Made by a program: the position numbers and the translations under genes. A stretch of DNA of 64,000 nt, from the NCBI RefSeq assembly GCF_001027545.1, contig NZ_CP009498.1:62001-126000 (forward strand). Direction: 5' to 3'. Within the stretch, counting starts at the first letter, position 1, and each line of letters opens with the position of its first letter. Source of the stretch: Endomicrobium proavitum (lineage in GTDB: Bacteria > Elusimicrobiota > Endomicrobiia > Endomicrobiales > Endomicrobiaceae). Of this stretch, positions 10,624 through 60,455 are shown piece by piece. The notes beneath the pieces were generated by a model that worked only from the letters and a program-made list of their open reading frames with translations, made no database searches and had not been told where the DNA came from.

Positions 10624-10632
10624 GGGGGGGGG
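10624..10632 (+). repeat. Nine-G homopolymer in the autotransporter leader
   Basis: An uninterrupted run of nine G lies directly after the hairpin CCGAA/TTCGG and before the terminator-like stem-loop. Long G runs are rare in this AT-rich DNA and are prone to slipped-strand change. Confidence 0.8.
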
Positions 10633-10668: not shown

Positions 10669-10702
10669 AAGCCTCGCGACGAAATGTCGGCGCGGCTTTT
10701 TT
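10669..10702 (+). terminator. Terminator-like hairpin in the leader (possible attenuator)
   Basis: AAGCC-CGC-GAC pairs with GTC-GCG-GGCTT (one bulge on each side) around a GAAAT loop and is followed by six T. There is no plus-strand gene upstream to terminate, because tmk is divergent. The hairpin therefore sits inside the leader between the 10564 promoter and the ORF at 10756. Confidence 0.65.
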
Positions 10703-10755: not shown

Positions 10756-13700
10756 ATGAAAAAAACGTTTGTTTATTCTGTTTTTGTATTATCTTGTTTA
10801 TTTGTATTTATTGGCAATATCTATGGTCAGAGTTACCCTCGCATAGATAATAGCACCGGCGGGATAGTCAACGTAACTATCTCCACGACATTTGCGAATC
10901 TATCCGGCAGTGCTTATGGCGGCGCAGTGTATAATGATAATAACGGAAAAATAGATTTTCAAGCATCGGTGATTTTCTCTAGCAACAGTCCAACTGAAGA
11001 TGGCGGCGCAATTTATAACAAAGGAAATTCTTTGATTGAATTTCAAGGTCCAAGTGTGATTTTCGCGGGTAATAGCGGAACCAACAATGGTTATAACAAT
11101 GGAGGAGCTATTTATAGCGATAATTCTACTATTAATTTTAATAATACAATCGCGACTTTTATTGAGAATACCGCAGGAGATTATTGCAATGGCGGCGCTA
11201 TTTTGAACACATGGGGCTCTTTAACTAATTTTACTAATTCAGTCGTAACTTTTACTAATAACAGCACAGGTTTGGGTGGCTGGGGTTTTGGGGACGGCGG
11301 CGCTATTTCTAACCATATAAATTCTTCAGTTAGTTTTAATGGTTCAACCGTAACTTTTGTTGATAACACGGCAGGTTACGTTGGTGGAGCTATTTATAAC
11401 GAGGAATCTTTGATTGAATTTAGCAATTCAAACGTCCTTTTCGCTGATAACATGGCAAACGACTTCGGCGGAGCTATTTATAATAATATATCCATTGTTA
11501 GTTTTAATAGCGGTCTTGTGCATTTCAATAGTAACAGTGCGCAATATGGCGCCGCTATTATGAATGATGCATCTTTGATTACATTTAGCGGTTCAAGCGC
11601 GGCTTTCACAAATGGCACCGCAGATTATGATGCCGGCGCTATTTATAACATTGCTGATTCTACTGTTAGTTTTACCGGCGGGTTTGTGATTTTTGAGAAC
11701 AATAGCTCAAACAATGGCGATGGCGGCAGTATATTTAATGAAGGCGTGGTAGAAATAGCCGGAAGCATAATGAATTTTATAAACAACAAAGCAATAGCGG
11801 GAGCCGGAGGGGGAGTATTTGCGCAAGCAGGAAGCAGCATAACATTAGAAGGGTCAGGGAATTTCATAGGAAACGAAGCGGGAAGTTACGGAGGAGCAAT
11901 ATACGTGTCAAGCAGCGCAAGCGTAAGCATAATAGCAAACAACGGGGACATAGCGTTTGACAATAATAAAATGAACGGAAGCCCCAACGACATATACATA
12001 GCTGATTGGGGCGTGTTGAATTTAGGGGGAGCAAAAGATATATATTTTAAAAGCGGAATAGGGTTTAATACGACAACAAGCAGCATGAATATAAAAGTAA
12101 CAAAAGAGGGAAGCGGGGTAGTATATCTAGATTATAGTAACCCGTATTTAAGCAATTTAGAATTTAAAGAAGGAAGCATAGGTTTGCACAGCGCAGGAAG
12201 CAATAGCGTAGGAAACCAGTTGACAATAAACGAGTTAGACGCAAGCGCAAGCGGAAGTCAAAAGATATATATGAATGTAAAAATAAACGGACAAATAGAC
12301 GACGAGTCTGATAAAATAAGAATAATAGATAAATATGAAGGGAATATAGAAATAGCGGGCAAACAAGTGGGAACAATGGGAGCGCTGACAGCAGGGGACG
12401 GAATGAAAGCGGTAGAGTTCGGAGAGAACGCAGTAATAAACGGAAATTTTAGTTTAGAAGGCGGAAAAATAGATAACGGAGCATATGAAATAAAAATGTA
12501 TAAAGGGGACGACGCAACGTTTAGCGATTGGAGCGCGTCGGCAGACCCAAGGGATTATTATTTAAGAACAGCAGTAAGCGGAGCCGGAGGAAACCCAGTA
12601 CTAACGGACGTATATAAAACAATGGCAAACATGCCAATATTGAACGTGCTGTTGGCGCGAGCGGGAATGAACAGTTTAGAAAAACGCTTAGGTGACTTAA
12701 GAGGTTTTGGTGTTGGAATAGCCGGCGTGTGGAGCAGGGTATATGGAGTAAACGAGAAAGTAAAAGATATGGTGGACACAAATTTAAGTTTAATGGGAAT
12801 AGAAGCGGGTTTTGACGTTTTGGTAAATAGAGAGGAAAAGAATAAAATATATGTTGGAGGAATGTTTGGATATACGGGAGCATTGGAAGCCAAAACAAAG
12901 TTAGGGGTAGAAAACAGCAACGGAAACGGAAGGGGAGTAAGCGTAGGGTTGTATGGAAGCTGGATAGAAGAAAGCGGCTGGTTTGTAGATTTGGCAAGCA
13001 GATATTTCATAACAAGTTTTGATATGGCAAATTACAGTTCAATAGGCGATAAGTTGGAGTATAAACCTGAAAGGGACATATGGGCAACGGGAATAGAAGC
13101 GGGAAAAACGTTCAAGGTAGAGCAAGACGAGAATAAATATATAAGAATAGAACCGAAGTTAGAAGTGCAGTATCTAATGGCAGGCGACGATAAAACAACG
13201 GTAACCAACGGCGTAGGGAGTTTGGAGTATGGAAAAGCGGATTATGTAAAAGGAAAAGCGAATATATTGATAGGTTACGCAGTAATGAAAAACGGGGAAG
13301 TGAAGTATGAGCCGTATATAGAAATAGGATATAATCATGAGCTGGCAGGGAAAGGGAAAATGAGTTATAGCGGAGTAGGATATGAAAGCAACATAAGCGG
13401 AGGCGGTTTTGAAGGAGCGTTGGGAGTAGATGTAAAGGTGAGCGAAAATATATACATATACGGACAAGGAAATATAGAGAGCGGAGAAAAGTTTAGCGCA
13501 ATAGGAGCAAACGTAGGAGTAAGAATAGGAATAGGGGAAAAGGGAAAGGAAGCAGCAGTAGTAGAAACAAAAGCAAAGCCGGCGGTTGTTGAATCAACGG
13601 CAACGGCAGCGGTAGAAAAAGAAGATAAAGATATAGAAGAAGCCAAAGCAAGAAGGAAAGCGTCAATAAAAGCGTTTAGTATTAAGGCGGCAAGTTTTGG

Positions 13701-14004
13701 AGTAGGTAAATCAGAGTTAACGCCGAAAGCGAAAGAAGATATAAAAGAGATGGCGCAAGAAATAAAGAAGTATGAGTACACGTCGGTAACAATAGAAGGG
13801 CACACAGACGCAAGCGGAAAAGCGGAAGTAAATCAAGAGTTGTCTGAGAAAAGAGCAAAGAGCGTGAGAGAAGAGTTTGTAAAAGAAGGAATAGAAGAAA
13901 GCAAAGTGAGAATAATAGGATTTGGACACAGAATGTCGGTGGACACAAACGAAACCGCCGCAGGAAGAGCCAACAACAGAAGAGTAGAAATATTTGTAGA
14001 ATAA
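10756..14004 (+). CDS. Pmp-like beta-helix autotransporter with C-terminal OmpA domain
   Basis: The 1082-residue protein has a signal peptide (residues 1-25). A passenger at about 26-420 carries repeated GGAIYN-type and FxxN-type motifs as in chlamydial polymorphic membrane proteins, and ends in a module with NDIYI. The stretch YYLRTAVSG near residue 601 and GVWSRVYG near 657 mark the autotransporter junction. The beta-barrel spans about 640-927. A charged linker follows, then an OmpA-type peptidoglycan-binding domain at about 976-1082 with TIEGHTDASG, NQELSEKRAKSV and GRANNRRVEI. In a normal barrel the C-terminus faces the periplasm, so the OmpA domain could hold peptidoglycan while the passenger is outside (inference). 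From about nucleotide 11740 the codon choice changes to A-ending, purine-rich codons. Confidence 0.88.
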   Translation: MKKTFVYSVFVLSCLFVFIGNIYGQSYPRIDNSTGGIVNVTISTTFANLSGSAYGGAVYNDNNGKIDFQASVIFSSNSPTEDGGAIYNKGNSLIEFQGPSVIFAGNSGTNNGYNNGGAIYSDNSTINFNNTIATFIENTAGDYCNGGAILNTWGSLTNFTNSVVTFTNNSTGLGGWGFGDGGAISNHINSSVSFNGSTVTFVDNTAGYVGGAIYNEESLIEFSNSNVLFADNMANDFGGAIYNNISIVSFNSGLVHFNSNSAQYGAAIMNDASLITFSGSSAAFTNGTADYDAGAIYNIADSTVSFTGGFVIFENNSSNNGDGGSIFNEGVVEIAGSIMNFINNKAIAGAGGGVFAQAGSSITLEGSGNFIGNEAGSYGGAIYVSSSASVSIIANNGDIAFDNNKMNGSPNDIYIADWGVLNLGGAKDIYFKSGIGFNTTTSSMNIKVTKEGSGVVYLDYSNPYLSNLEFKEGSIGLHSAGSNSVGNQLTINELDASASGSQKIYMNVKINGQIDDESDKIRIIDKYEGNIEIAGKQVGTMGALTAGDGMKAVEFGENAVINGNFSLEGGKIDNGAYEIKMYKGDDATFSDWSASADPRDYYLRTAVSGAGGNPVLTDVYKTMANMPILNVLLARAGMNSLEKRLGDLRGFGVGIAGVWSRVYGVNEKVKDMVDTNLSLMGIEAGFDVLVNREEKNKIYVGGMFGYTGALEAKTKLGVENSNGNGRGVSVGLYGSWIEESGWFVDLASRYFITSFDMANYSSIGDKLEYKPERDIWATGIEAGKTFKVEQDENKYIRIEPKLEVQYLMAGDDKTTVTNGVGSLEYGKADYVKGKANILIGYAVMKNGEVKYEPYIEIGYNHELAGKGKMSYSGVGYESNISGGGFEGALGVDVKVSENIYIYGQGNIESGEKFSAIGANVGVRIGIGEKGKEAAVVETKAKPAVVESTATAAVEKEDKDIEEAKARRKASIKAFSIKAASFGVGKSELTPKAKEDIKEMAQEIKKYEYTSVTIEGHTDASGKAEVNQELSEKRAKSVREEFVKEGIEESKVRIIGFGHRMSVDTNETAAGRANNRRVEIFVE

Positions 14005-21090: not shown

Positions 21091-24000
21091 ATGAAAAAAA
21101 TACTCTTCTATCTTACGGTTATGTGTGTTTTTGCCGTAAATGCTTACTCTCAAACGGTGAGTGTTTCAAGCTTTACCTACTTGCAGCAACTTTACCAGTC
21201 CGGCGGCTCTCAAGATATAAGTTTAACGTCAAACATATCGTTTGCAGATTGGCTTGGCGCTCCGGGGTTTTCCCTTTCAATGTCGGTTGACGGTCAGTCT
21301 TTATACTCTTTTGACGGTGCCGGCGCTTACGGCGGCTTTTACGGCGACCCTATGTCTATGGGAAGTTTTTCATTCAATAATACCGCGCTTAAAAATTTTG
21401 TAAGTTCAGGAGCGGTTTCGGTAACGTTCGGCACTTTCAATTCTTCAAACACCTCTTTTAGCAATAACGGCAACGTTTTAACCGGCGGAGCCGTTAGTAT
21501 AGCCTTATCAAACTCCCAATTAGACGGCAATATAGTTTTCAGTTCAAATTCCGCGGGCGCTTCGGGCGGAGCTTTTGCAGTGGTTGCAAGCGATGTTTTG
21601 TTTACGGGAAACTCTTATTTTTACGGCAACACGGCGGCTGTAGATGCCGGCGCGCTGCTTGTAACTTTTGACAGTTACGTTACATTTAACGGAAGTTCAA
21701 TTTATGAAAACAACGTTTCTACTTCCGCTTCCGGAGACGGTTACGGCGGAGCTGTGGCGGTTTTTGAATCTACCGCTATTTTTTCTTACGCGGAATTTAG
21801 TTCAAACCTTGCCGACAGAGGCGGGGCTATAGCCGTTATAGACGGAGATTTGCCCGGCAGCGGTTCTTATGTTTCTTTCGGCGACGTAATTTTTAACGGC
21901 AATACGGCCACGTCCATAGGCGGCGCGGTATATGCCGACGGGTCGGTAATAGATTTTAACGGCGATGCGCTGTTTCAAGATAACAATGCTCAGTCCGGCG
22001 GAGCCGTGCGCGCCGATATTTCCGTTGTAAACTTCAACGGCGACTCCGTTGCGTTTTCTTCAAACCACGCAACATATAACCCCGGCGGAGCATTTTACCT
22101 TTTCAGATCTACCGTAAATTTTAATTCCGCATATTCTTCTTTTTCTTACAACGCTTCAAATTTTAACGGCGGCGCAATATTTGCAAACTATAAATCTTCA
22201 GTCCTTTTTTCTACGGGCGCCGCTCTTTTTGAAGGAAACAGAGCTTCCCTTAACGGCGGCGCTGTTTACGCGCTTTCTTCAAATGTAGAATTTCAAAATG
22301 TAAGTTTTATAAATAACACGGCGCAGAGCGGTTTGGGCGGAGCCGTTTATATAGCGGGTACCGCCGCAAGCGTTGCCACGGCAACGTTTAGAACTTCCGT
22401 TCAAGGCTTAAGTTCTTCTACGGTTTTTAGCGGAAACGCCGCAGGCTCGTCGGGTAACGGAATGTATATAGGCGATTATTCAAAAGTTTATTTTATAACG
22501 GATTCGGGCGCAAGCGTGGAGATGTATGATAACATAGCTTCCGGCGCAGGCGTAACCGGTTCAAAAATTTATATTTCCGGCGCGGGATATTTTAACCTTT
22601 ACGCAAACTCGCTTTCAAATAAAGCGGATGTTGAATTATCCGGAAATCTTAATTTTAAAAACGGAGCAGCTCTCGGCGCGGGAATGCTTACGATTAATCC
22701 GGGTTCTTTTATAGACATGCTTGACGGCGCGACAAATTCAATAAACGCGGCTTATATCAACAATGCGGGAAGAGTGGATTTAGAAACTTTTGATACGGTA
22801 AACGATTCTTTAAACTCTTCCGGCGCTCTTGTTTTAGACGCGGCAAACAGCGTTTTAAATGTAACCATTCAAAATTATACGCCGCAAAAAAGAATATACA
22901 AACTTTTCAGTTACGGTTCTCTTGCGGGACAGTTTAACAGCGTAAATATCCTCGGAGTGGCGCTGCTGCCGTCGGATTATCAAATATTATACGGAACCGG
23001 TTACGACAGTTTTATCACGCTTATATTAAACGGAGATACGCAGAGCAATTTTAGCGCTATAACGGGGCTTACTTTTAACCAAAGCGAAACGGCGAAAATT
23101 TTTGACAATGTTGCGCAAACAGCTTCTGGAGATTTGTTAGATGTAATTTTGGAAGTTCAGCTTTTAAGCAATACCGCCTTGCAGAAAGACGCTTTAGGTC
23201 AGAGCGCGGGATATTTTCTTGCAAACGTTTTAAGAAACGCCGCTATAGAATCTTCGCACAAAGACATATACGATAAAATGAACGGTCGCGCAACTTCATC
23301 TCTTGTGTCCGGAATATGGGCGCAGGCAATAGGCGGCAACGTTTCCCGCAAAGGCGATGAGAATTCAATAAATGAATTCCGCAGCAACTCTTCCGGCGCA
23401 ATGATAGGTTATGACAAATTTGATTATAATACAAACGTTGTTTTCGGACTTTTCGGAAAATATAAAAACAGCGATATAAAGCAAGATCCGCAAAATTCTG
23501 CCGCGGCAATGAATGCCGGCGCAGGAATTTACGTAGGCTGGATAAGCGAATATGTGGACATTAAAGTTTTGGCTGAAGGCGGTTTTGACAACTATGACAC
23601 ATCAAGATATATTCCGTTTGTAAACAGAACCGCAACGGCAAAATTCAACGGGCTAAACTACGGCGGAAACGTTGAAGCTGCCGCTAAAATTCCGTTAATC
23701 GGCAATTTTAAAATAAGACCTTATGCGGGATTTGAAGCTAAAAATTCAAGCTATGAAGATTTTAAAGAAAGCGGCGCGGGAAGTTTAAATTTAAATGTTA
23801 AAGGCGGAAACTATTTCAGAAGCGCAGCTCGCGGCGGAATAGGTTTTATTCTTGACAATAAAAATTTTAGTTTCTATGTTCAAGGAGAAGGAAAATATTT
23901 AACCTCCGGCGATATCAGCGAAATAGAAAGCGCATTTGACGGCGCAAAATCTTTATCGTTTAAAACGCGCGGATATACGGAAAACAAATTTAGTTACGGC

Positions 24001-25017
24001 GCGGGCGTTGGCGTGTCGCTTGCGTTTTCTCAATACTTTAGACTATTCGCAAACGGAAATTATTATTCCGGTGCGGATAAATTTGAAGATTTATACGCAA
24101 ACGCAGGCATAAGAATTGCTTTTGGAGACTCTGCGCCTGTTATTGAAAAAGCGGGCAGCGCAGACGCAAAACCTGCGGAAAAATCTATGCCTTTAACCTC
24201 AAACGAACCGCTTGAAACAAGCGAAGTTGCTTATCAGCCGCCTGTGGATGCGCAAAATTATGCTCCTAAAAATCCGCAGCTGCAAGTTCCTGAAACTACG
24301 CCTCAAGACGTTAGCGCCGCAGAACAGATTACGGATTTGAATGCCGATACTGCTGCGCCTGAAGACGTTCCTCAAGTTTCTATAGAGAGCGCTTTAGACG
24401 CTGTTTCTTCGGATGCGGATAAACTTGCCGCCGACCGGAATCAGCTTCAAAATATTTTGCCGCCAAATGCGGTTCCTGTAACGGATGCGCCGGTTGCGCA
24501 GCCTGTTGCCGAGGATGTTCCTGAAGCTGCGGCTGAAGAAGTTCCGTCGGTGCGTCCGTCTATAATTCCTGATAATGCGGTTGCTGTAACTCAAGCGCAG
24601 CCTGCGGCTTTTATTGCTGCTGCTGAAGTTTCGGCGCCGGCGCCTGTTGTTGTGGAAGAACCTGTCGCAAAAACTCCGGCTGTAGTTAAACCGGCTGCGG
24701 CTCCAAAGAAAGCTGCGGCTGTAAAGCCTGCTGCAAAAAAAGCTAAAACAACTGCGGTGAAATCTAAAGCTGCAGCTAACAATAAGAAAGCCGCAACTGC
24801 GGTTAAAAAAGCTGCGCCTAAAAAGGCGGCTGTAGCGGCGGTAAAAAAAGCTCCCGCAAAAAAAGCGGCGGTACAACAAGCTGCGGTAAAAAAGAAATCG
24901 GCGGTCAAAACTAAAGTATCTCCGGCAAAAGCGGCTGCAAAAACCGTAAAGCCGGCGGCTAAAAAAGCTCCCGCAAAAAAAGCTTCAGCCAAGAGAGCCG
25001 TAAAAAAGAAAATTTAA
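21091..25017 (+). CDS. Pmp-like autotransporter with acidic linker and histone-H1-like tail
   Basis: The 1308-residue protein has a signal peptide (1-21) and a beta-helix passenger with repeated GGAVYA/GGAIFA and FxxN motifs (about 120-460). A linker with QSNFSAITGL near 651 leads to a beta-barrel at about 740-1012 (GIWAQAIGG to AGIRIAFGD). The barrel shares RPYxGxEAKN and GNYFRSAARxG with the giant protein at 50128. The reading frame continues about 296 residues past the barrel. First comes an acidic Ala/Pro/Glu-rich part (1013-1195), then a tail of KKAA/PAKKA repeats ending in AVKKKI. The last 108 residues contain 34 lysines. The tail should lie in the periplasm if the barrel inserts normally. 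It could bind peptidoglycan, teichoic-like polymers or nucleic acid; none is shown. Confidence 0.87.
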   Translation: MKKILFYLTVMCVFAVNAYSQTVSVSSFTYLQQLYQSGGSQDISLTSNISFADWLGAPGFSLSMSVDGQSLYSFDGAGAYGGFYGDPMSMGSFSFNNTALKNFVSSGAVSVTFGTFNSSNTSFSNNGNVLTGGAVSIALSNSQLDGNIVFSSNSAGASGGAFAVVASDVLFTGNSYFYGNTAAVDAGALLVTFDSYVTFNGSSIYENNVSTSASGDGYGGAVAVFESTAIFSYAEFSSNLADRGGAIAVIDGDLPGSGSYVSFGDVIFNGNTATSIGGAVYADGSVIDFNGDALFQDNNAQSGGAVRADISVVNFNGDSVAFSSNHATYNPGGAFYLFRSTVNFNSAYSSFSYNASNFNGGAIFANYKSSVLFSTGAALFEGNRASLNGGAVYALSSNVEFQNVSFINNTAQSGLGGAVYIAGTAASVATATFRTSVQGLSSSTVFSGNAAGSSGNGMYIGDYSKVYFITDSGASVEMYDNIASGAGVTGSKIYISGAGYFNLYANSLSNKADVELSGNLNFKNGAALGAGMLTINPGSFIDMLDGATNSINAAYINNAGRVDLETFDTVNDSLNSSGALVLDAANSVLNVTIQNYTPQKRIYKLFSYGSLAGQFNSVNILGVALLPSDYQILYGTGYDSFITLILNGDTQSNFSAITGLTFNQSETAKIFDNVAQTASGDLLDVILEVQLLSNTALQKDALGQSAGYFLANVLRNAAIESSHKDIYDKMNGRATSSLVSGIWAQAIGGNVSRKGDENSINEFRSNSSGAMIGYDKFDYNTNVVFGLFGKYKNSDIKQDPQNSAAAMNAGAGIYVGWISEYVDIKVLAEGGFDNYDTSRYIPFVNRTATAKFNGLNYGGNVEAAAKIPLIGNFKIRPYAGFEAKNSSYEDFKESGAGSLNLNVKGGNYFRSAARGGIGFILDNKNFSFYVQGEGKYLTSGDISEIESAFDGAKSLSFKTRGYTENKFSYGAGVGVSLAFSQYFRLFANGNYYSGADKFEDLYANAGIRIAFGDSAPVIEKAGSADAKPAEKSMPLTSNEPLETSEVAYQPPVDAQNYAPKNPQLQVPETTPQDVSAAEQITDLNADTAAPEDVPQVSIESALDAVSSDADKLAADRNQLQNILPPNAVPVTDAPVAQPVAEDVPEAAAEEVPSVRPSIIPDNAVAVTQAQPAAFIAAAEVSAPAPVVVEEPVAKTPAVVKPAAAPKKAAAVKPAAKKAKTTAVKSKAAANNKKAATAVKKAAPKKAAVAAVKKAPAKKAAVQQAAVKKKSAVKTKVSPAKAAAKTVKPAAKKAPAKKASAKRAVKKKI

Positions 25018-50045: not shown

Positions 50046-50074
50046 TTGACAAAACCACCTCTGCCGACTATACT
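50046..50074 (+). promoter_or_regulatory. Strong promoter of the giant autotransporter gene
   Basis: A consensus TTGACA (50046-50051), a 17-base spacer and TATACT (50069-50074). AAAGGAC precedes the ATG at 50128. Confidence 0.8.
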
Positions 50075-50127: not shown

Positions 50128-53100
50128 ATGAAAAGATTACTGTTTTTAACTCTTGCGTTGTCATTCGCGTTTGTTTTTGCAACGTCGGTAAAAGCCGAAA
50201 CTTATACCGGAGATTTTCTGTTATATGACGGTTTGAGCGTGAATACAAACGGCGGGGCGTTGTATCTTCCTGGAGGACAGACTACTTTTGATACACTGAT
50301 TACTTCTTTTACAAATAACAGCTCCGGATATTACGGTTCCGGCGGCGCAATATTTATTGGCAGAAACGGCCAGTATGCCACATTAATTTTTAATGGCGAC
50401 ACGTATTTCGGCAATAACTCTAAAAATGCAATAGTTGTAGATTACGGTTCAAAAGTTTACTTCAACGGGCATACTCACATATTTGAAAATAACACTCCAA
50501 ATGCCATTTCTTTTGGCGGTAACGATGAAACTTTGGTGCAGTTTTCGTCGGCAAATGTGTTTTTTAGAAATAATGCTATTAGCGCTAACGGTTTTTCAGG
50601 CAATTATGCGGCGGGTGTGCCGGGCGTGCCTGACAGCAGCTATATAATTTTTAACAATTCAACAGTTACGTTTACAAATAGAAACGGCAGCACGTTTGTG
50701 GAATCTGCCAATAACGGAGCAGTGTTTAACGGCGGAACTGTAATTTTTGACAGCAATTCTGTCTCAATAAATTTTTCAAACAGCTTTGACCAAATTGTTT
50801 TTAACCCTAACAGCGTAGAATTCAACTATAACTATTCCAACGGTAACGGCATACAAGTAAAAGATTTGGACAGGTTTTTAAACTTTAAACTTTCAGCCGC
50901 CGGCAATAAATCTCAAAACGGCGGCTTCTTAAATTTTGTAAGCACAAGCGTAGTTTTCAATAAAGAAATAGAATTTATCGGAAATTCGGCTGTTAACGGC
51001 GGCGCAATTTACGCCGACAACTCGGTTTTAACTTTTAATAATAAAACTACTTTTAAAAATAACGCTTCGCAAAACTCAGGCGGAGCAATTTATTTACAAA
51101 ATTCTACTGCAAATTTTAACAGCGCAAACGGAGAAATATTATTCTCTTCTAACTCATCTCAAGGGAAAGTAAACGATATATATGCAAACAACTCTGTTTT
51201 GAATTTCAATACGGTAAACAATGCAATAACAGTCAGCAACATAAAAACCGAAAATTTTTCTTATATAAATAAAACCGGCAACGGAACTTTGTATTTTGAT
51301 TGGGACGCTTATAACAACGGTTATAATTCTACAACCTTAAATAATACAATATTTGATATTTCCGCAGGGACAGTTACCGTGTATTCGTATTACGAGCAGT
51401 CAAAAGGGGCTTTAATAGCAAACAATGCGTATCTTAATTTTGGAACGGTTATTTTTACAAGTAATACTAATAATAACGGCGGCGCTGTTTACGCAAACAA
51501 TGCAAATGTATCTGTTGCCGGCATGACAGCGGCTTTTGAAGGGAACGTAGCTGCAAACTCCGGCGGCGCAATTTATGCTTCAAACTCAATAGTAAAATTC
51601 GGAAATTTGACTACAAGGTTTGATTCTAATAAAGCTGCATTCGGCGGCGCAATTGCAATAAGCGGAGGAAGTTTAGAGCTTAACAATGGCGTTACTACTA
51701 ATATGCAGTTTGGTCCTACATTTATAAAGAATTCCGCAACAAATAACGGCGGTGCAATTTATGCTATAGACGGCGCAAAAATAAATGACACTAATTATAA
51801 TGTGATTACTGCATTTAATCCTCCTGCAGGCAACGGAACTCCTGTATTGGCTAACGCCCAGCTTACAACTTCTTTTGAAAGAAATACTGCTTCATGGGGC
51901 GGCGGCGCTATAGCGACTATGGGAGTAAATACTGCGGTTAATTTTAACAGAACGGTAAAGTTTACCTCTAATACTGCAAGCGCCGGAGGCGGCGCTATTA
52001 TGGCTGACCAAAATTCGGTAATTAACTTGAACGGAAAGTCGTTATTTTTAGGAAATAATTCAGGCAGTATCCAAAATGAATACGGAGCTTCCGGCGGCGG
52101 AGCAGTTTTTGTTGCCAATAGCGCCGTTGTGAATTTTTCAACATCTTCAACAGTTTCTTTTACAAGCAACACTGCTGCCAATTACGGCGGAGCGTTAAGC
52201 TTAAAACGTTACGGTACGGCTAATTTTTACGGAAACATCTCTGACTTTATCGGAAATAATGCAACTTACGGCGGCGCAGCGGCGTTATTTTCTAACTCAA
52301 ACAGCTACGGTGGAAGCTTGCTGAATTTTATAGGCGGGCAAGTTAGTTTCGCAAAAAATACCGCTACCTATGGCGGAGCAATATATGTTGGCGGTTACCC
52401 TACAATTTCATTGGTAAATTTCTCACAGACAACCGTCACGTTTGCAAACAATACTGCAAACCTTGGCGGTGCAATTTATGTAGGAGAATCAAACGCCGCA
52501 AATAGAATTGAGTTTAACAACTCAAGAGTAGTTTTTGCAAGCAACGCTGCCACAGGCGCGGATAAATCTGAAATATATATCGTAAACAGCGGTTCATATT
52601 CCGGCTACAATGTCCCCGGAGAAGTAATTTTTAACGGTGGAACGGTAGTGTTTTCAAGTTATACCGGCACAATCGGAAAATTTGTTAACGACTGGAGCCG
52701 CGTAACTTTTAATCCTGATGTTATAGAGTTTTCAAATAATATTAATCTTTCTTCAATTTACGATTGGAATGTGTTTAAAAATTATAAGATTAACGCAATA
52801 GGGAACACCGGCGGATTTTTAGATATTATCAATCAAAATATTTCGTTTAATAATAATTTAAATGTAATAGGTAACAATGCTGGAAGCATGGCGTCTGCCG
52901 ATGGATCTGCGTTGTATATAGCAACCGGCGTTGTAACATTTTCGCAGCTGAATGCTTCAGGAAATAAATCGCGCGGAGCTTTAAGCGCAATGTATTCTAA
53001 AGTATATTTTAACGGAGCCTCCCAATTCTATGATAATGCAGTTTCTTTCGGTCCCGGCGGTGCGGTTAGTGTTCAATATAGCTCGGTTGTGTTTAATCAA

Positions 53101-56100
53101 AATGTAACTTTTACAAGTAATGCCACAGCTATTTATGGCGGCGCAGTATATGCCGATAGAAGTGATATTTTATTTAATGCTTATGCGAATTTTGTGAACA
53201 ACTATGCCAACGGCAGCGGCGGCGCGGTTGCTGCTTATGATAATGCGTATATTCAGTTTGCAAATGTGGATTTCACAAATAATTCTACATTTGCCGGCGG
53301 AGCTTTGCTTGCAGATTATGCAAGTAACGTAGTGTTTAACGGCGCAACCAATTTTACAGCAAATAAAACTGACGGTAAAGGCGGCGCTATTTACGCTTCA
53401 TCTTCGGTAATAACATTTAGCAATACTTCAGTTTCGTCATTTATCGGAAATAGTTCAGATAAAAGTAATGGCGGCGCGCTGTATTTGAATTCAGCGGTAA
53501 CTAATTTCAACGGCGATGCTTATTTTGCCAATAACAGCGTAGGCAACGTAAATATAAGCACAACGTATATAGACGGTGTTCTTGATTGGATATCGTATGG
53601 CTCTGATGAAACTTATTATTACAAGAGTCTTAGTGAGCACGGTGATGGCGGAGCTATATATTTAAACAGTAATTCTGCTTTGAATTTCAACAGTCAAAGC
53701 ACGGAGTTTGTCGGCAACGGCGGAGAGTATAAATCAATTAATACTTATTTAGATACTTATCATTCTATCTCCGGCACAGGTGGAACTCAATATGGCGGAG
53801 CCATATATCAAGCAACAGGCTCTTCTATAAATTTTAACAACGGTTTAGTAAAGTTTGTAGGAAATACGGCGGGCACCGGCGGAGCGGTGTATTCAAATTC
53901 CGGAAGTTTGCTTAGTTTTAATAATTCAACGGTGATATTTGAAGGAAATACTGCAACATCGGAATATAGTCCGCCGGCATATTACTATAGAGGCGGAGCT
54001 ATGGTGTTATACGGCTTAACCAAATTTGATAATGTAAAAGGCGTTTTTAGTAACAACTATTCTCCGGTCGGCGCGGGCGCAATAGCTGTTGGAGATCAAG
54101 GCTATACGGGCACATACGGAATTCCTAATAATATAGATTTTAATGCATATAGAAATAATTTAAAAATATCTAATTCAACAATATCATTTCATTCCAATTC
54201 TTCAGTTTATTCTGAAAAATCTTCTTACCCTTCAGGTTTTGGCGGAGCGTGGGGCATTGGCGACAATGCAATTGTCCGCGTAGATTTTAGCAATATTAAT
54301 TTTACAAGTAATACGGCGCAGAGCGGCGGAGCCATACAAGCATATTCCTCAAAAATTATTTTTAACGACGGAGAAACAAATTTTGTCGGCAATGAAGCTA
54401 AAGGATCTACCGGCGGAGCTATTGAGGCGCTCGGATCAAGTATTGATTTTATAAACGGCATAGTAAATTTTAGCTTGAACAAATCTTCCGCAGCAGGCGG
54501 CGCCATAAATACTAGAACAAACGGCGGAGGCGGTTATCATTATCAAAGCATGACATCTTGGGTGCGTCTGGCAGCCTCTTCTATTTCATTTGTTAATGAA
54601 CAAGCTGCATTTACAAATAATATTGCAGGCACATCCGGCGGTGCAATATATTTTGCTTCAGGCGATGATCTTGACGATGTTTTTGTGGATGGTCGTTTAG
54701 TAACGAGTTATAAAGGTAAATTGTTGTTTGACAGCAGCACAGCGACATTTAAAAACAACGTCGCAGGCGAATACGGCGGCGCGCTGTATTTGGCGCCTAA
54801 CGGCATAACTGTTTTCAACAATACTTATGCTCAGTTTTTAGGAAACACCGCTCTTGGCGGCGGCGCAATAACCGTTTCAAGTGCGTCATTGAAGTTTGTA
54901 AATTCTAACGTTGAATTTTCTTCTAATGCGTCTATGTTTCAAGCTGCAGTTCCTTTTTATCGCGGAGGCGGCGCTTTGGAAATAAAAGACGGATCAAATG
55001 TAAGTTTTGAAAGCTCCACAATAAAATTTAACAACAATGTTTCTATTGCGTATGGAGGAGCAATAGGCGTAGGCTCTATGGGTGATTATCCTCCGCAAGA
55101 AACAAGAAGCTTTTTGAGTTTCAAAAATTCTACAGTTGAATTTACAAATAACGGAGCAATAGGCAGCTATTTGTCAACCACTCAAGGCGGAGCTTTATAT
55201 AGCGGCAATTCCGATGTAACTTTTGAAAATAGTAAAACGTTGTTTGCAAATAATACCGCTGTGTTCTATTACCCCGGACCTATGTATGATTCCGAAGGCA
55301 ATCTTATTACTATCGGCGGCAGCGGTAGGGGCGGCGCAGCAAATGTAATATGGAGTAAGTTGAATTTCACAAAAACAACAGGGTTTACGGAAAGCAATGC
55401 TGTTAAGTTTAGCAGTAATACGGCTACTTTGGCGGGAGCGCTTTACATAGCCGGTTCAACTGTAAATATTAAATCTGACAATGTAGAATTTTCCGGAAAC
55501 GTTGCCCGTTCTACCGGCGGTGCGGTTTATATAGCCGGATATGGCTACTTATCCTATAGCATAGGTCTTTTAAATTACAGCAACGCATACTTAAATATAG
55601 TTGCGGATACAATTTCCTTTGTAGGCAATTCGGCTGCTAAAGACGGCGGCGCAATATATGCAAACGCCGGCAGCAGCATAACTTTATCCGGCGGCAATAT
55701 TTTATTTACCGGAAATACCGCAAACGGTAAACCTAATGATATCTACGCTGAAAACTCATATTTCAACTTTAACCTTGCATCCGGACAATACGCAAGACTT
55801 GAAGGCGGAATTGTTGCAACCGGCGCAGATAATACCATTGTAAAAACCGGAGCAGGAGATTTAACTTTAAGCGGAATAAGCCGTTTAAACGGAACTTTTA
55901 ATATTCTTGCGGGAACTTTTTCTTTAGATCGCGCATCTTTTACGTTTGAAACCGGAACGTTCAACCTTGCAACGCAAAACAGAACCATAGTTACAAATAA
56001 TTCAGTTGTAACAATTGCCGACAGCGTAAATTCCGACGGTTCTAAATTGAATTTTTCAAATAAGAGCACAACTGATAACGGCGGCGCGTTGTATAACACT

Positions 56101-59100
56101 TACTCTAATATTTATATAGGCGCTCCTGTTGAATTTGCAAATAACAGCGCTAATTTTTACGGCGGCGCGTTGTTTGTTCTTGGCGGCATTACAACATTTA
56201 ATAATGATGTTGCTTTTAAAAACAATACGGCAAGAGCGGCAGGCGGCGCGTTAATTTCAGATTTGAATTCAACTGTAAATTTTTACGGCGACAATGTATT
56301 ATTTATAAACAATGGAACCACTGACGGAAACGGTCAATCTTACCAGGGCGGCGGAGCTATTTACGCAAATAGAGCCGGCGGAATTGTAAATTTCTACGGC
56401 GGAAATGTTTTGTTTTCAACAAACTCTACCGGACGTGACGGCGGCGCAATTTACGCCAACAATTACGGAAGCGTCAATTTCTCTTCAAGTAATGTAAGTT
56501 TTATAAATAACCAAGCTCAATACGGCGGCGCCATAAGCGTTAGAAGCGGCAACATTTCTCTTAACGGCGCGGCAGGCTTTATAAATAACAAAGCGTCAAC
56601 ATACGGCGGCGCAATATTTATGTCCGGCGGAGTTGTTACTCTTGCAGCTACAACAGGCGATATTCTATTTGCGTCAAACACCGCAAACGGAGCCGCAAAC
56701 GATATATTCCTTGGCGGAAGCAACTTAACAATAAACTTTGGCGGAGCTAACAATATAGTATTAAACGGCGGCATAAAAACTGATGTCAACTCAAGTAATG
56801 TTACCATAAACAAAACAGGCGCGGGACAGCTTTACTTAACCGGCAGTAACTATATAAAAGGAAACTCTAACATAACCGGCGGCGCATTGGTAATAGCAAA
56901 TTCCAATTTTGAATACGACGGCGGTAATCTCAATGTAAACGGAACTTCCGGATATAGACCATATGATAGCGATATTATTAATGCCGGTGTAAGAATATTC
57001 AATTCGCAAGCTTCGTTTAATAATGTTGATATGAATATATCCGGTAATTCTTCTTCTGTAGTAATGTCGTCTGTCCCTTTTTATATGAATCCAACGTATA
57101 GATTTGAGGCGGCTTACGGCGGAGCTATGTCGGTGCATAACAGTACTGTTGTTTTCGGCGGCGCAGCTCAATTCACAAATAACTCTATTGTAGGCGGAGG
57201 TTATAATAATTCGGTTTATAACAATTCGCACGGCGGCGCATTGGGAATTTTGCAAAGCAATGTTGATTTTAACGGCGATGTTTTGTTTGCGGAAAATACC
57301 GCGGGCGTGGGTTTAGATAGACATGGCAATGCAGGGGCGGTATATATAGGTTCAAGCACGGTCAACTTCAATGCTAAAACTGCGTTTGTAAACAATACTG
57401 CAGGCAGAGGAGCGTATGCGGCTCCGGGTAACGGAAGCGGAATATACGCAGAAAATTCTCGAATCTATTTTAATGGTATTTCTTCGTTTACGGGAAACGC
57501 AGGGCAAAATGCTACTGCAGGCGCCGGAATTTACCTTGCACAAAGCACTCTCGCGTTTACAGCTGACGCATATTTTGCCAACAGCGCAGGCAGCGGCGGT
57601 GGAATTTATGCGCGGGGCTCATATATAAATTTTGCAAATAGTAATATAAGTTTTATAAATAACGGCGGCGGCTATGGTTCACTGAACGGCTCTTATGCTT
57701 TGAGCATTGAAGGGTCTTCTCTTGTTGAATTTGATAATGCTCGCGCATATTTTATAGGCAACATGGGCGGGTTGGGCGTAGCTGCCTCAACGGTTGTGTT
57801 TAATGGCGGGTCTGCGTTATTTCAAAACAACAAAATAGATGTAGCGGGCGCAGCTATAAACCTTAGAAGCGGGGTTATAGATTTTAACTACGCAACTGTT
57901 GAATTTACGGGTAATAAATATCAAAGCGGAGACTCAATGGCGCCGGAAGAATACCGAGGCTTGGGCGGCGCAATATATGCAACTGCCGGATTAATTAATT
58001 TTACAGATTCGCAAGTATATTTCACAAGCAATACAGCGCGCAACGGAAGCGTAATTTATGCGATACGCGGCAGCACGGTAAATTTTGTAGGCGGCAACGT
58101 AACGTTTGCATATAACGTTTCTACCGACAGCGGAGCTGCAAATATTTATGTTGATGAAACTTCTACGGTAACGTTTGTAAATACCGGAAGAGCGTATTTC
58201 TCTAACGCGTCGGCGCGAAGCGGCGGGGCGGTGGCATTGCATGCGGCGGCTCTTTCTCACGACGCAGCGGCAAATTACGTGGCTAACCGCGCAGAAGAAA
58301 ACGGCGGAGCGATAGCGGCATTTGAAGGCTCAACGGTATCGTTTAAAAATATATCCGCAAATTTCAGCGACAATTTGTCAAGCGTAGGCGGAGCAATTTA
58401 CGCTTATAAAGCTAACGTAACGTTCGGCGAAGAAAGCGCGTCGCCAAGCCCGTTAAGAGCTCCGGCTTTTGCGCCTCAAAAAGTTGTTTTGAATAATCCT
58501 ACAATAACATTTGCAAACAACGTCGCGCTTTCAAGCGGCGGGGCGTCGGCATATGTTGAAGCAATTCTTGAAGCGAAAAATGCAACGATGTTATTTATAA
58601 ACAACAGAGCGCAGTATTCCGGCGGAGCAATATATTCCGAAAAATCAACAATAACAATTTCAGGAAAAGGCGAATACATTAACAACCAAGCCGGCACGCA
58701 GGGCGGAGCGATATACTTAACGGGCAGCACAATAATATTGTCGGCAGCGACAGGGGAAATATTGTTTAAAGGCAACACAGCCAACGGCGTAGCAAACGAC
58801 ATATACCTTGATAATGATTCGCTGTTAAATTTCAACGCTGCAGGCGCAAACAAAATAATACTTGAAGGCGGCATCAACAGCAGCGCCTCGGGCGCAAATA
58901 TAAACGTAACTAAAACCGGCAGCGGCATATTGCAACTTGGCGGAGCAAACGAAGTTTACGGAACGTTTAGCATAACCGACGGCGAAACAGCGTTTATAAA
59001 ATCGGCAAGCTATAAAGGAACAACGCTTTCGGCAACAGGAAGCGGCGTGCTGAACGCAGCCAACGCAAAAGCAAATATAATAGAAGTAACAAACTTTGAA

Positions 59101-60405
59101 AGTACAAACGAATTGAAGCTGGATATATTTGCAAACGGAGCAAGCGATAAAATATACGCAAACAACGCAACGCTCGGCGGTAACTTGTATGTAAGAGCAG
59201 GTGTAGGCGTGTATGAAAATGAAGTATTTAATTTCATATCAGCCAGCAATACGGTAACGGGAACGTTTGCAACAAACATCATAACAGGAAGCGGTTTAAC
59301 AACAAACTACGACTACGCAACGCCGGGCTTGGTGAAAGTAACGGTAAGCGGCGTAAATCAAAGCAACTTCAGAAATTTCACAGGATTAAGCTATAACGCG
59401 CAGGAAACCGCAAAAGCGTTGGATAAAATATCAATAACAAGAAGCGGCGCAATAATAGATATAATAAATGAAGCGGTCTTTGCCGGCGAAGCCGAGCAAA
59501 AAGCGTTGCTGACAGCGACAAGCGGATATTTTATAGCCAACGTAATAAGAGGGGCAGGACAGTCGGACAAAGAAGAAGTGTATAACAGAATAAACAACGA
59601 CCAGAAACAATCGGCGTGGGCGCAGGGCGGGTTAAGCAGCGCAAAATACGGCGAAGACGCGAATTCAGTAGGGGAAGTGAAAGTAAAAAATAACGCATTT
59701 GCCGCAGGTTACGACGCATTCGCCGGCGAGAAAACGCTGATAGGCGTTTACGGTAAATACAATGCGGGAAGCGTAGAACAAGCAGGCAACAAAGCGGACG
59801 TGTCAAACGTAGGCTTGGGCGTTTACGGCGGCTACGTAGCCGATAAGTATGAATTCAAAGCGTTGATAAGCGGAAGCTACGACAGTTATGATACAACAAG
59901 ATACATAGCAGGCGACATAGCCAAAGGCGATTTTGGAGGGTTTAGCGTAGGAGCGGACGTAGAAGCGGCGTTCAAAGAAGAAGTGGTGGCAAACATAAAC
60001 TTAAGACCATACGTAGGAATAGAAGCCAAGAATATAAACTACGGAAGTTTTAAAGAAGAAACGGCAAGCGCGTTAGGATTAGAAGTGGAAAGCGGCAACT
60101 ATTTCAGAAGCGCGGCAAGAGCAGGTTTGGGAGTAAGTTACGACAACAAGATAGTAAACGTATTTATCAACGGCGAAGCGAAATACTTAATAGCGGGCAA
60201 AGACAGCGAAATAGAAGCAAGCGTAGCCGACACAAAATTTAACAGCAAAAGCTACGAAGAAAACGGTTTGTTGTACGGAGCGTCAATAGGAGCGGAAGTA
60301 AAAGTGTATAAAGAGTTGAAAGTATTCATAAACGGCAACTACCTAACGGCCGACAACTACGAAAACATAACAGGAAAAGCAGGAATAAGTTTTAACGTGA
60401 AATAA
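50128..60405 (+). CDS. Giant Pmp-like autotransporter adhesin (3425 residues)
   Basis: The protein has a signal peptide (about 1-23, ending SVKA) and a passenger of about 3000 residues made of beta-helix repeats. These show dozens of GGAIY/GGALY and FxxN/FVGN motifs, as in chlamydial Pmps. At least four capping modules with NDIY or NDIF, followed by a Gly-Gly-Ile strand and a KTGxGxL strand, occur near residues 350, 1869, 2190 and 2889, dividing it into large segments. QSNFRNFTGLSYNAQETAK near 3078 leads into the barrel (about 3158-3425; SAWAQGG to GKAGISFNVK). The barrel is homologous to that of the 21091 gene. There is no extension after the barrel. Surface adhesion is inferred from the fold. 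The last 2.2 kb use A-ending, purine-rich codons unlike the rest. Confidence 0.88.
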   Translation: MKRLLFLTLALSFAFVFATSVKAETYTGDFLLYDGLSVNTNGGALYLPGGQTTFDTLITSFTNNSSGYYGSGGAIFIGRNGQYATLIFNGDTYFGNNSKNAIVVDYGSKVYFNGHTHIFENNTPNAISFGGNDETLVQFSSANVFFRNNAISANGFSGNYAAGVPGVPDSSYIIFNNSTVTFTNRNGSTFVESANNGAVFNGGTVIFDSNSVSINFSNSFDQIVFNPNSVEFNYNYSNGNGIQVKDLDRFLNFKLSAAGNKSQNGGFLNFVSTSVVFNKEIEFIGNSAVNGGAIYADNSVLTFNNKTTFKNNASQNSGGAIYLQNSTANFNSANGEILFSSNSSQGKVNDIYANNSVLNFNTVNNAITVSNIKTENFSYINKTGNGTLYFDWDAYNNGYNSTTLNNTIFDISAGTVTVYSYYEQSKGALIANNAYLNFGTVIFTSNTNNNGGAVYANNANVSVAGMTAAFEGNVAANSGGAIYASNSIVKFGNLTTRFDSNKAAFGGAIAISGGSLELNNGVTTNMQFGPTFIKNSATNNGGAIYAIDGAKINDTNYNVITAFNPPAGNGTPVLANAQLTTSFERNTASWGGGAIATMGVNTAVNFNRTVKFTSNTASAGGGAIMADQNSVINLNGKSLFLGNNSGSIQNEYGASGGGAVFVANSAVVNFSTSSTVSFTSNTAANYGGALSLKRYGTANFYGNISDFIGNNATYGGAAALFSNSNSYGGSLLNFIGGQVSFAKNTATYGGAIYVGGYPTISLVNFSQTTVTFANNTANLGGAIYVGESNAANRIEFNNSRVVFASNAATGADKSEIYIVNSGSYSGYNVPGEVIFNGGTVVFSSYTGTIGKFVNDWSRVTFNPDVIEFSNNINLSSIYDWNVFKNYKINAIGNTGGFLDIINQNISFNNNLNVIGNNAGSMASADGSALYIATGVVTFSQLNASGNKSRGALSAMYSKVYFNGASQFYDNAVSFGPGGAVSVQYSSVVFNQNVTFTSNATAIYGGAVYADRSDILFNAYANFVNNYANGSGGAVAAYDNAYIQFANVDFTNNSTFAGGALLADYASNVVFNGATNFTANKTDGKGGAIYASSSVITFSNTSVSSFIGNSSDKSNGGALYLNSAVTNFNGDAYFANNSVGNVNISTTYIDGVLDWISYGSDETYYYKSLSEHGDGGAIYLNSNSALNFNSQSTEFVGNGGEYKSINTYLDTYHSISGTGGTQYGGAIYQATGSSINFNNGLVKFVGNTAGTGGAVYSNSGSLLSFNNSTVIFEGNTATSEYSPPAYYYRGGAMVLYGLTKFDNVKGVFSNNYSPVGAGAIAVGDQGYTGTYGIPNNIDFNAYRNNLKISNSTISFHSNSSVYSEKSSYPSGFGGAWGIGDNAIVRVDFSNINFTSNTAQSGGAIQAYSSKIIFNDGETNFVGNEAKGSTGGAIEALGSSIDFINGIVNFSLNKSSAAGGAINTRTNGGGGYHYQSMTSWVRLAASSISFVNEQAAFTNNIAGTSGGAIYFASGDDLDDVFVDGRLVTSYKGKLLFDSSTATFKNNVAGEYGGALYLAPNGITVFNNTYAQFLGNTALGGGAITVSSASLKFVNSNVEFSSNASMFQAAVPFYRGGGALEIKDGSNVSFESSTIKFNNNVSIAYGGAIGVGSMGDYPPQETRSFLSFKNSTVEFTNNGAIGSYLSTTQGGALYSGNSDVTFENSKTLFANNTAVFYYPGPMYDSEGNLITIGGSGRGGAANVIWSKLNFTKTTGFTESNAVKFSSNTATLAGALYIAGSTVNIKSDNVEFSGNVARSTGGAVYIAGYGYLSYSIGLLNYSNAYLNIVADTISFVGNSAAKDGGAIYANAGSSITLSGGNILFTGNTANGKPNDIYAENSYFNFNLASGQYARLEGGIVATGADNTIVKTGAGDLTLSGISRLNGTFNILAGTFSLDRASFTFETGTFNLATQNRTIVTNNSVVTIADSVNSDGSKLNFSNKSTTDNGGALYNTYSNIYIGAPVEFANNSANFYGGALFVLGGITTFNNDVAFKNNTARAAGGALISDLNSTVNFYGDNVLFINNGTTDGNGQSYQGGGAIYANRAGGIVNFYGGNVLFSTNSTGRDGGAIYANNYGSVNFSSSNVSFINNQAQYGGAISVRSGNISLNGAAGFINNKASTYGGAIFMSGGVVTLAATTGDILFASNTANGAANDIFLGGSNLTINFGGANNIVLNGGIKTDVNSSNVTINKTGAGQLYLTGSNYIKGNSNITGGALVIANSNFEYDGGNLNVNGTSGYRPYDSDIINAGVRIFNSQASFNNVDMNISGNSSSVVMSSVPFYMNPTYRFEAAYGGAMSVHNSTVVFGGAAQFTNNSIVGGGYNNSVYNNSHGGALGILQSNVDFNGDVLFAENTAGVGLDRHGNAGAVYIGSSTVNFNAKTAFVNNTAGRGAYAAPGNGSGIYAENSRIYFNGISSFTGNAGQNATAGAGIYLAQSTLAFTADAYFANSAGSGGGIYARGSYINFANSNISFINNGGGYGSLNGSYALSIEGSSLVEFDNARAYFIGNMGGLGVAASTVVFNGGSALFQNNKIDVAGAAINLRSGVIDFNYATVEFTGNKYQSGDSMAPEEYRGLGGAIYATAGLINFTDSQVYFTSNTARNGSVIYAIRGSTVNFVGGNVTFAYNVSTDSGAANIYVDETSTVTFVNTGRAYFSNASARSGGAVALHAAALSHDAAANYVANRAEENGGAIAAFEGSTVSFKNISANFSDNLSSVGGAIYAYKANVTFGEESASPSPLRAPAFAPQKVVLNNPTITFANNVALSSGGASAYVEAILEAKNATMLFINNRAQYSGGAIYSEKSTITISGKGEYINNQAGTQGGAIYLTGSTIILSAATGEILFKGNTANGVANDIYLDNDSLLNFNAAGANKIILEGGINSSASGANINVTKTGSGILQLGGANEVYGTFSITDGETAFIKSASYKGTTLSATGSGVLNAANAKANIIEVTNFESTNELKLDIFANGASDKIYANNATLGGNLYVRAGVGVYENEVFNFISASNTVTGTFATNIITGSGLTTNYDYATPGLVKVTVSGVNQSNFRNFTGLSYNAQETAKALDKISITRSGAIIDIINEAVFAGEAEQKALLTATSGYFIANVIRGAGQSDKEEVYNRINNDQKQSAWAQGGLSSAKYGEDANSVGEVKVKNNAFAAGYDAFAGEKTLIGVYGKYNAGSVEQAGNKADVSNVGLGVYGGYVADKYEFKALISGSYDSYDTTRYIAGDIAKGDFGGFSVGADVEAAFKEEVVANINLRPYVGIEAKNINYGSFKEETASALGLEVESGNYFRSAARAGLGVSYDNKIVNVFINGEAKYLIAGKDSEIEASVADTKFNSKSYEENGLLYGASIGAEVKVYKELKVFINGNYLTADNYENITGKAGISFNVK

Positions 60406-60420
60406 AAACAAAACTCAACA

Positions 60421-60455
60421 AAAAAGCCCGCTGATTTTTCGGCGGGCTTTTTCTA
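60421..60455 (+). terminator. Terminator after the giant autotransporter
   Basis: AAAAAGCCCGC and GCGGGCTTTTT form an 11-bp stem around a T-rich loop, followed by a T-rich end. Confidence 0.88.

Follow-up and report, generated by a model that had tools for sequence, protein, structure and literature searches.

How a bacterial autotransporter reaches several thousand residues, and whether it does so by joining complete passengers or by growing within one, is the question raised by a gene in the stretch of DNA analysed here, a window of 64,000 nucleotides that corresponds to genome positions 62001-126000 of the single 1,588,979-bp contig of the termite-gut bacterium Endomicrobium proavitum. The gene encodes a protein of 3425 residues, hereafter the giant, in which one module recurs four times. 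The first-pass annotation took this module for a beta-helix cap or linker and proposed that the giant may have grown by fusing or duplicating several complete passengers. The features of the locus, in window coordinates, are the following:

50046..50074, + strand: sigma-70-like promoter, TTGACA-17-TATACT, 11/12 matches, with no simple-repeat leader here
50128..60405, + strand: ORF of the giant, a 3425-aa autotransporter-type protein with an ATG start
50128..50196, + strand: probable Sec signal peptide, about residues 1-23, of typical look on inspection of the sequence by eye
50956..51417, + strand: module 1, residues 277-430, from the profile; lineage undecided
55576..55968, + strand: module 2, residues 1817-1947, from profile and tree; internal lineage, with a PATR-like stretch at 1905-1931
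56482..56940, + strand: module 3, residues 2119-2271, from profile and tree; internal lineage, weak placement
58576..59034, + strand: module 4, residues 2817-2969, from profile and tree; terminal lineage
59035..59613, + strand: pre-barrel junction, residues 2970-3162, from the junction profile
59614..60336, + strand: autotransporter beta-barrel PF03797, residues 3163-3403, E 4.6e-31 and 1.5e-29
60425..60452, + strand: terminator-like hairpin and T-run 3' of the stop codon of the giant, read by eye

The giant is probably a single-gene transcription unit, because the best promoter-like site of its region lies just upstream (first of 33 sites, with 26.7 expected in shuffles) and a terminator-like hairpin follows its stop codon. 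This hairpin is absent from the terminator scan since its loop of 10 exceeds the limit of the scan. The barrel was likewise overlooked when the whole protein was scanned and was found by separate scans. With this C-terminal translocator barrel, and with a beta-helical passenger predicted in the same chain (model of residues 1740-2300), the giant would be a type Va-like autotransporter adhesin made up of signal peptide, beta-helix, junction and beta-barrel. Its passenger would form a right-handed beta-helix of ~3100 residues, built from Pmp-type GGA[ILV]/FxxN rungs of about 27 residues each. From these sequence features we infer that the protein is displayed at the cell surface and is adhesive. 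Autotransporters usually end in an aromatic residue; the C-terminal residue of the giant is Lys.

Chlamydia-Pmp repeats run along the giant (PF02415 of Pfam at 2.6e-38; TIGR01376 of NCBIfam at 5.7e-44, in 13 stretches). The E. proavitum proteins thus resemble chlamydial Pmp proteins in their GGA[ILV]/FxxN rungs (TIGR01376, PF02415), which the giant itself contains, in their autotransporter barrel and in forming a multigene family, but they differ in their recurring PATR-containing modules, in sizes up to 8155 aa and in belonging to a different phylum. Among the Pfam matches of the giant up to E 0.1, PF07548, which we take to be the Pmp middle domain, is missing, and other Pmp-specific domains gave no match at this threshold either. 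Because the middle domain is not matched, we do not file the giant in the chlamydial Pmp family. Similarity to PATR was detected as well: TIGR02601 matches residues 1903-1933 with 20.7 bits (cut-off 19.85), and PF12951 scores 17.3, 25.7 and 25.7 bits, all below the Pfam cut-off of 27. A PATR-like rung before the barrel is shared with PATR-bearing autotransporters (PF12951 / TIGR02601), such as BmaA and BmaB of Brucella, for which the available text of one study reports several PATR copies per passenger (PMC8111173). Unlike in these proteins, the PATR-like rung of the giant is combined with a Pmp rung, and in this protein family terminal copies belong to largely different lineages from internal ones.

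The recurring NDI module in the giant was confirmed by profile as four copies of ~145 residues each. The NDI motifs lie at residues 349, 1870, 2191 and 2890, and each is followed by KTGxGxL (residues 382, 1906, 2229 and 2929). The consensus given in the first-pass annotation needs two corrections of detail: copy 3 reads NDIF, and copy 1 is without the Gly-Gly-Ile strand. Given the Pmp repeats and the PATR-like match at 1903-1933, the module appears to be a Pmp rung passing into a PATR-like one, the last Chlamydia-Pmp-type rung being joined to the latter by an NDI[YF] turn. The module extents in the giant were set by a profile that included the giant's own copies, but detection is not circular, because an independent profile of 94 modules, all from other genomes, recovers all four at full length (97.4, 97.8, 113.6 and 131.7 bits); elsewhere in the giant this profile reaches at most 39.2 bits, in partial matches of about half-length. 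Local scores between the modules range from 136 to 321, compared with maxima of 108-147 for 42 other stretches of the giant against the same modules. Modules 3 and 4 are the closest pair, with 68 of 149 aligned residues identical, while the weakest pair, modules 1 and 2, scores 136 and does not exceed the background stretches. Giants with permuted rungs proved an invalid null, as they retain modules nearly whole within one fragment, scoring up to 133 bits. That the modules are a product of chance or composition, such that any Pmp-rung protein would show them, is almost certainly wrong: all of them do contain ordinary GGAI/FxxN rungs, partial matches do occur elsewhere in the giant and pair 1-2 does lie within background, but four full-length copies at 97-132 bits versus 39 bits for the next best, with the profile from other genomes, refute such an origin for every copy, as does a rule of terminal position valid in 44/44 proteins.

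This rule emerged when 62 Pmp-rich ORFs were compared, 20 from E. proavitum and 42 from relatives. In all 44 proteins with both a module and a barrel (the barrel of the 8155-aa protein being taken from a separate barrel search), 162-244 residues separate the end of the last module from the barrel. The protein of the gene at window position 10756, whose passenger had been said to end in the same module, does conform, its module lying 162 residues before the barrel:

11761..12231, + strand: terminal module of the 10756 protein, residues 336-492, from the profile

In the E. proavitum protein encoded at window position 21091, which has a barrel, no module exceeds the threshold; a 33-bit module match in it ends 213 residues before the barrel. 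A profile of the pre-barrel junction gave 53 terminal matches versus a single internal one, which is marginal (E 0.0099). The number of modules increases with the length of the passenger (Spearman 0.82, 41 proteins): passengers below 1000 aa have exactly one module in 21/21 cases, and longer ones usually have more. The view of the module as a closer of passengers is therefore right for the last module, which normally closes the passenger (44/44), and is not supported for internal modules, which would not be ends of fused passengers. Module 4 of the giant is an ordinary terminal module, which together with the junction and the barrel forms the C-terminal translocator cassette of the family.

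If internal modules were caps, one of the two roles first suggested, the helix should stop at them. An AlphaFold model of residues 1740-2300, based on a four-row alignment of window sequences, instead predicts a beta-solenoid (pLDDT 80.3) whose strands continue through modules 2 and 3; confidence dips directly behind each of these modules. Foldseek returned no PDB match for this model at E 0.001 or better, and a PDB sequence search none at E 0.01. VIA-align, a second look at Foldseek's own candidate chains, whose E-values are poor, aligned the model to pertactin (Z 18.1, 394 residues, 3.6 A, over model residues 41-541) and to 8egr_A (Z 22.9, 422 residues, 2.9 A); both are single chains with continuous helices. 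According to this prediction, the helix would be continuous through the internal modules, which would not act as caps where they sit. The model of residues 2700-3425 is poor (pLDDT 51.7), too poor beyond about model residue 340 for the junction and barrel.

For the origin of the internal modules, 135 modules were classed by position as 76 internal, 44 terminal and 15 undecidable, with some of the internal ones coming from sequences without a visible barrel. On a tree of 118 modules, from which the undecidable ones and two duplicates were removed, the terminal and internal labels need 5 changes versus 34.8 when shuffled (0/500 as low); near-copies inflate this clustering, yet the pattern spans several genera. 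A tree constrained to keep all 42 terminal modules together exceeds the free one by 34.9 lnL, and a tree with module 1 of the giant added to this clade does so by 29.0 lnL, neither of them being rejected; the deep branches are mostly unsupported, with 58 of 115 inner branches open. Internal and terminal modules thus seem, from their sequences, to be largely separate lineages across genera, and modules 2 and 3 of the giant appear to fall with the internal one.

These data bear on the idea, which we consider improbable, that the giant is a series of complete passengers joined head to tail, in which each module was once the C-terminus of a passenger. In its favour, the module closes normal passengers, and the free tree groups module 1 with terminal modules (support 80); a tree with this module inside the terminal clade is not rejected, so that it could be the relic of a terminal module. 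Against it, modules 2 and 3 group with internal modules, the junction has one marginal internal match versus 53 terminal ones, and neither the junction profile nor the barrel search found a junction or barrel after the internal modules of the giant. The segments between modules are also irregular in length (252, 1386, 171 and 545 aa). Compared with 200 permutations of rung order, the six segment pairs gave uncorrected p-values of 0.01-0.10; pairs A-D and A-B (p 0.01 and 0.02) slightly exceed the permutations, while the remaining ones are not clearly alike beyond rung level. Self-similarity, which had been offered as a check of the earlier proposal, gives a mixed outcome: it is evident over 100-150 residues at the modules and reaches only these values between them. 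The lineages are largely separate, the helix is predicted to run through the modules and there is hardly a trace of an internal junction. Trees, junction profile and segment comparison thus do not support fusion of complete passengers for modules 2 and 3; in-line growth, with an internal lineage of modules, has the better support.

How such growth may proceed is seen in the paralogues, which together with the giant make up a large mosaic family. The genome of E. proavitum encodes 23 autotransporter barrels, and at least 20 Pmp-repeat ORFs, with proteins of up to 8155 aa, add up to 46,979 aa and so occupy about 141 kb, some 9%, of the 1.59-Mb genome. The 8155-aa paralogue contains internal DNA repeats that are 77-96% identical, many of them with modules, at offsets such as 508, 597 and 687 aa. 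Judged from these repeats, paralogues change by tandem duplication of units of rungs plus an internal module. Growth by duplication, the other half of the original proposal, can therefore be followed in this paralogue but not in the giant, in which no DNA repeats of at least 150 bp were found; that the giant itself grew by such internal duplications, none visible in its present DNA, is what we infer. Twelve gene pairs have common 3' blocks of 93-98% DNA identity that begin 6-193 aa before the terminal module (blocks of at least 1500 bp and over 85% identity, among ten chosen genes). When gene 10756 is compared with its paralogue at genome position 643502, identity jumps from 67-75% upstream to 98.2% from residue 331, five residues before the module. 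Terminal module, junction and barrel, with an OmpA domain in those genes, thus travel as a cassette, and paralogues exchange such 3' cassettes at a seam directly upstream of the terminal module. The giant has no near-identical partner in the genome, and only its barrel region matches others (63-65%).

Several further observations concern these paralogues. The protein encoded at 10756-14004 carries its barrel (residues 658-905) and then an OmpA peptidoglycan-binding-type domain (981-1075) in one chain, an order that is, to our knowledge, unusual, and its ending residues recur in several paralogues. The autotransporter encoded at 21091-25017 has a long Lys/Ala-rich tail after the barrel, partly encoded by tandem DNA repeats. 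Two 100% identical copies of 3339 bp are found at genome positions 156739-160077 and 638159-641497; they are preceded by ORFs of different length (154308-156647, 779 aa, and 641589-642857, 422 aa), each of which ends soon after an intragenic G8 tract, possibly a slip-strand switch. The genome has two copies (132312-139624 and 853219-860616) of a two-gene unit for a 452-aa protein and an autotransporter of about 1870 aa, and these are alike at the protein starts compared.

Taken together, we consider it probable that the modules are in-line parts of the helix, of which the internal lineage was multiplied with rung blocks and the terminal one belongs to the cassette. In this scheme, Pmp-type rungs would pass through the NDI turn into a PATR-like rung, and modules 2 and 3, perhaps also module 1, would derive from the internal lineage and have multiplied within the passenger along with blocks of rungs. 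Whether they serve a purpose is a separate matter. Internal modules may be repeated folding nuclei that sustain C-to-N translocation of the very long helix, an idea we entertain tentatively by analogy, because PATRs are said to act in this way near the barrel. They might instead be functionless hitch-hikers of unequal recombination between repetitive genes, tolerated by the helix, a possible reading if a somewhat doubtful one. Recombination across the family is indeed heavy, and modules are included in the recent internal duplications of the 8155-aa paralogue. The number of modules follows passenger length, and the internal lineage is kept apart from the terminal one across genera, but both points speak only weakly against hitch-hiking, as simple block duplication predicts the same.

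Many paralogous autotransporter genes, but not that of the giant, are preceded by short leader ORFs with simple repeats, with a terminator-like hairpin between leader and gene:

AACAC leaders: genome positions 215369, 410829, 646969, 817379, 1241359 and 1588828
G-tract leaders: genome positions 817644 and 327167, and window 10624-10632 (gene 10756)
CAGA/AGAC leaders: genome positions 154115, 367690, 477904 and 643011
AAGC leader: genome position 188540
10624..10632 of the window, + strand: G9 tract, part of the leader of gene 10756; the terminator-like hairpin lies at about 10669-10698

Of 13 leaders scanned by a script, 10 have the hairpin between leader ORF and gene, and the best hairpin of the remaining three lies elsewhere. 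The AACAC arrays precede autotransporter genes in 6/6 cases, and one reading frame of these six leaders ends 34-44 nt short of the hairpin, two others reaching or crossing it. The arrangement of repeat-bearing leader ORF, terminator and surface-protein gene is like that of pil1 in Streptococcus gallolyticus, described in the accessible portion of the source as a phase-variable attenuator with a simple repeat in a leader ORF followed by a terminator (PMC3894217); it differs in that several units (G, AACAC, CAGA and AAGC) precede many genes of one genome, and the likeness in E. proavitum is one of sequence. The leader of gene 10756 may be dead, because the ATGACC that provides the start codon of the two other G leaders reads ATAGCC there. 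Repeat leaders of this kind, with CAGA arrays at genome positions 520017, 1360040 and 131588, also precede genes for further proteins predicted to be exported or OmpA-like, and at 298318 a G9 tract lies between TTGACA and TATAAT-like boxes upstream of another exported protein. Among relatives, 1 of 35 upstream regions has a simple-repeat leader, in draft genomes in which such repeats may be collapsed.

A search with a 14-row alignment of the module matched 39 of 198 genomes drawn from the phylum at 1e-15, of which 36 belong to the family of E. proavitum and 3 to one other family; in a smaller sample, 12 of 25 genomes match, E. proavitum itself counted. A conserved position next to secA was rejected, as none of 80 secA loci, several with short upstream flanks, has a Pmp-rich ORF nearby. 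The most-sampled genus (g8), perhaps the endosymbiont genus Endomicrobiellum, has small genomes, mostly of 0.6-1.3 Mb, with 0-3 modules among the matches listed, so the repertoire of giant surface proteins may have disappeared when protist hosts were entered. In its available portions, a 2024 comparative study contains neither 'autotransporter' nor 'adhesin' and names pilins as the sole appendages of these bacteria (PMC11257099). These proteins are likewise undescribed in the accessible text of the Elusimicrobia/Endomicrobia literature on autotransporters, Pmp, phase variation and adhesins (including PMC12483993), a scope outside which the subscription papers on E. proavitum fall.

The two lineages of modules offer a test of how autotransporters of 3,000-8,000 residues are exported and evolve. 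At its fullest, the picture would be one of a modular, recombining and phase-variable repertoire of giant helices in E. proavitum, with passengers expanded by duplicated units whose modules are folding checkpoints of export, cassettes swapped at a seam and expression switched by leaders (for paralogues, not for the giant), a combination that we regard as unlikely to hold in all its parts. E. proavitum is a cultured, free-living relative of the endosymbionts of termite-gut protists, and for this reason a large repertoire of contact surfaces would bear on the origin of that symbiosis.
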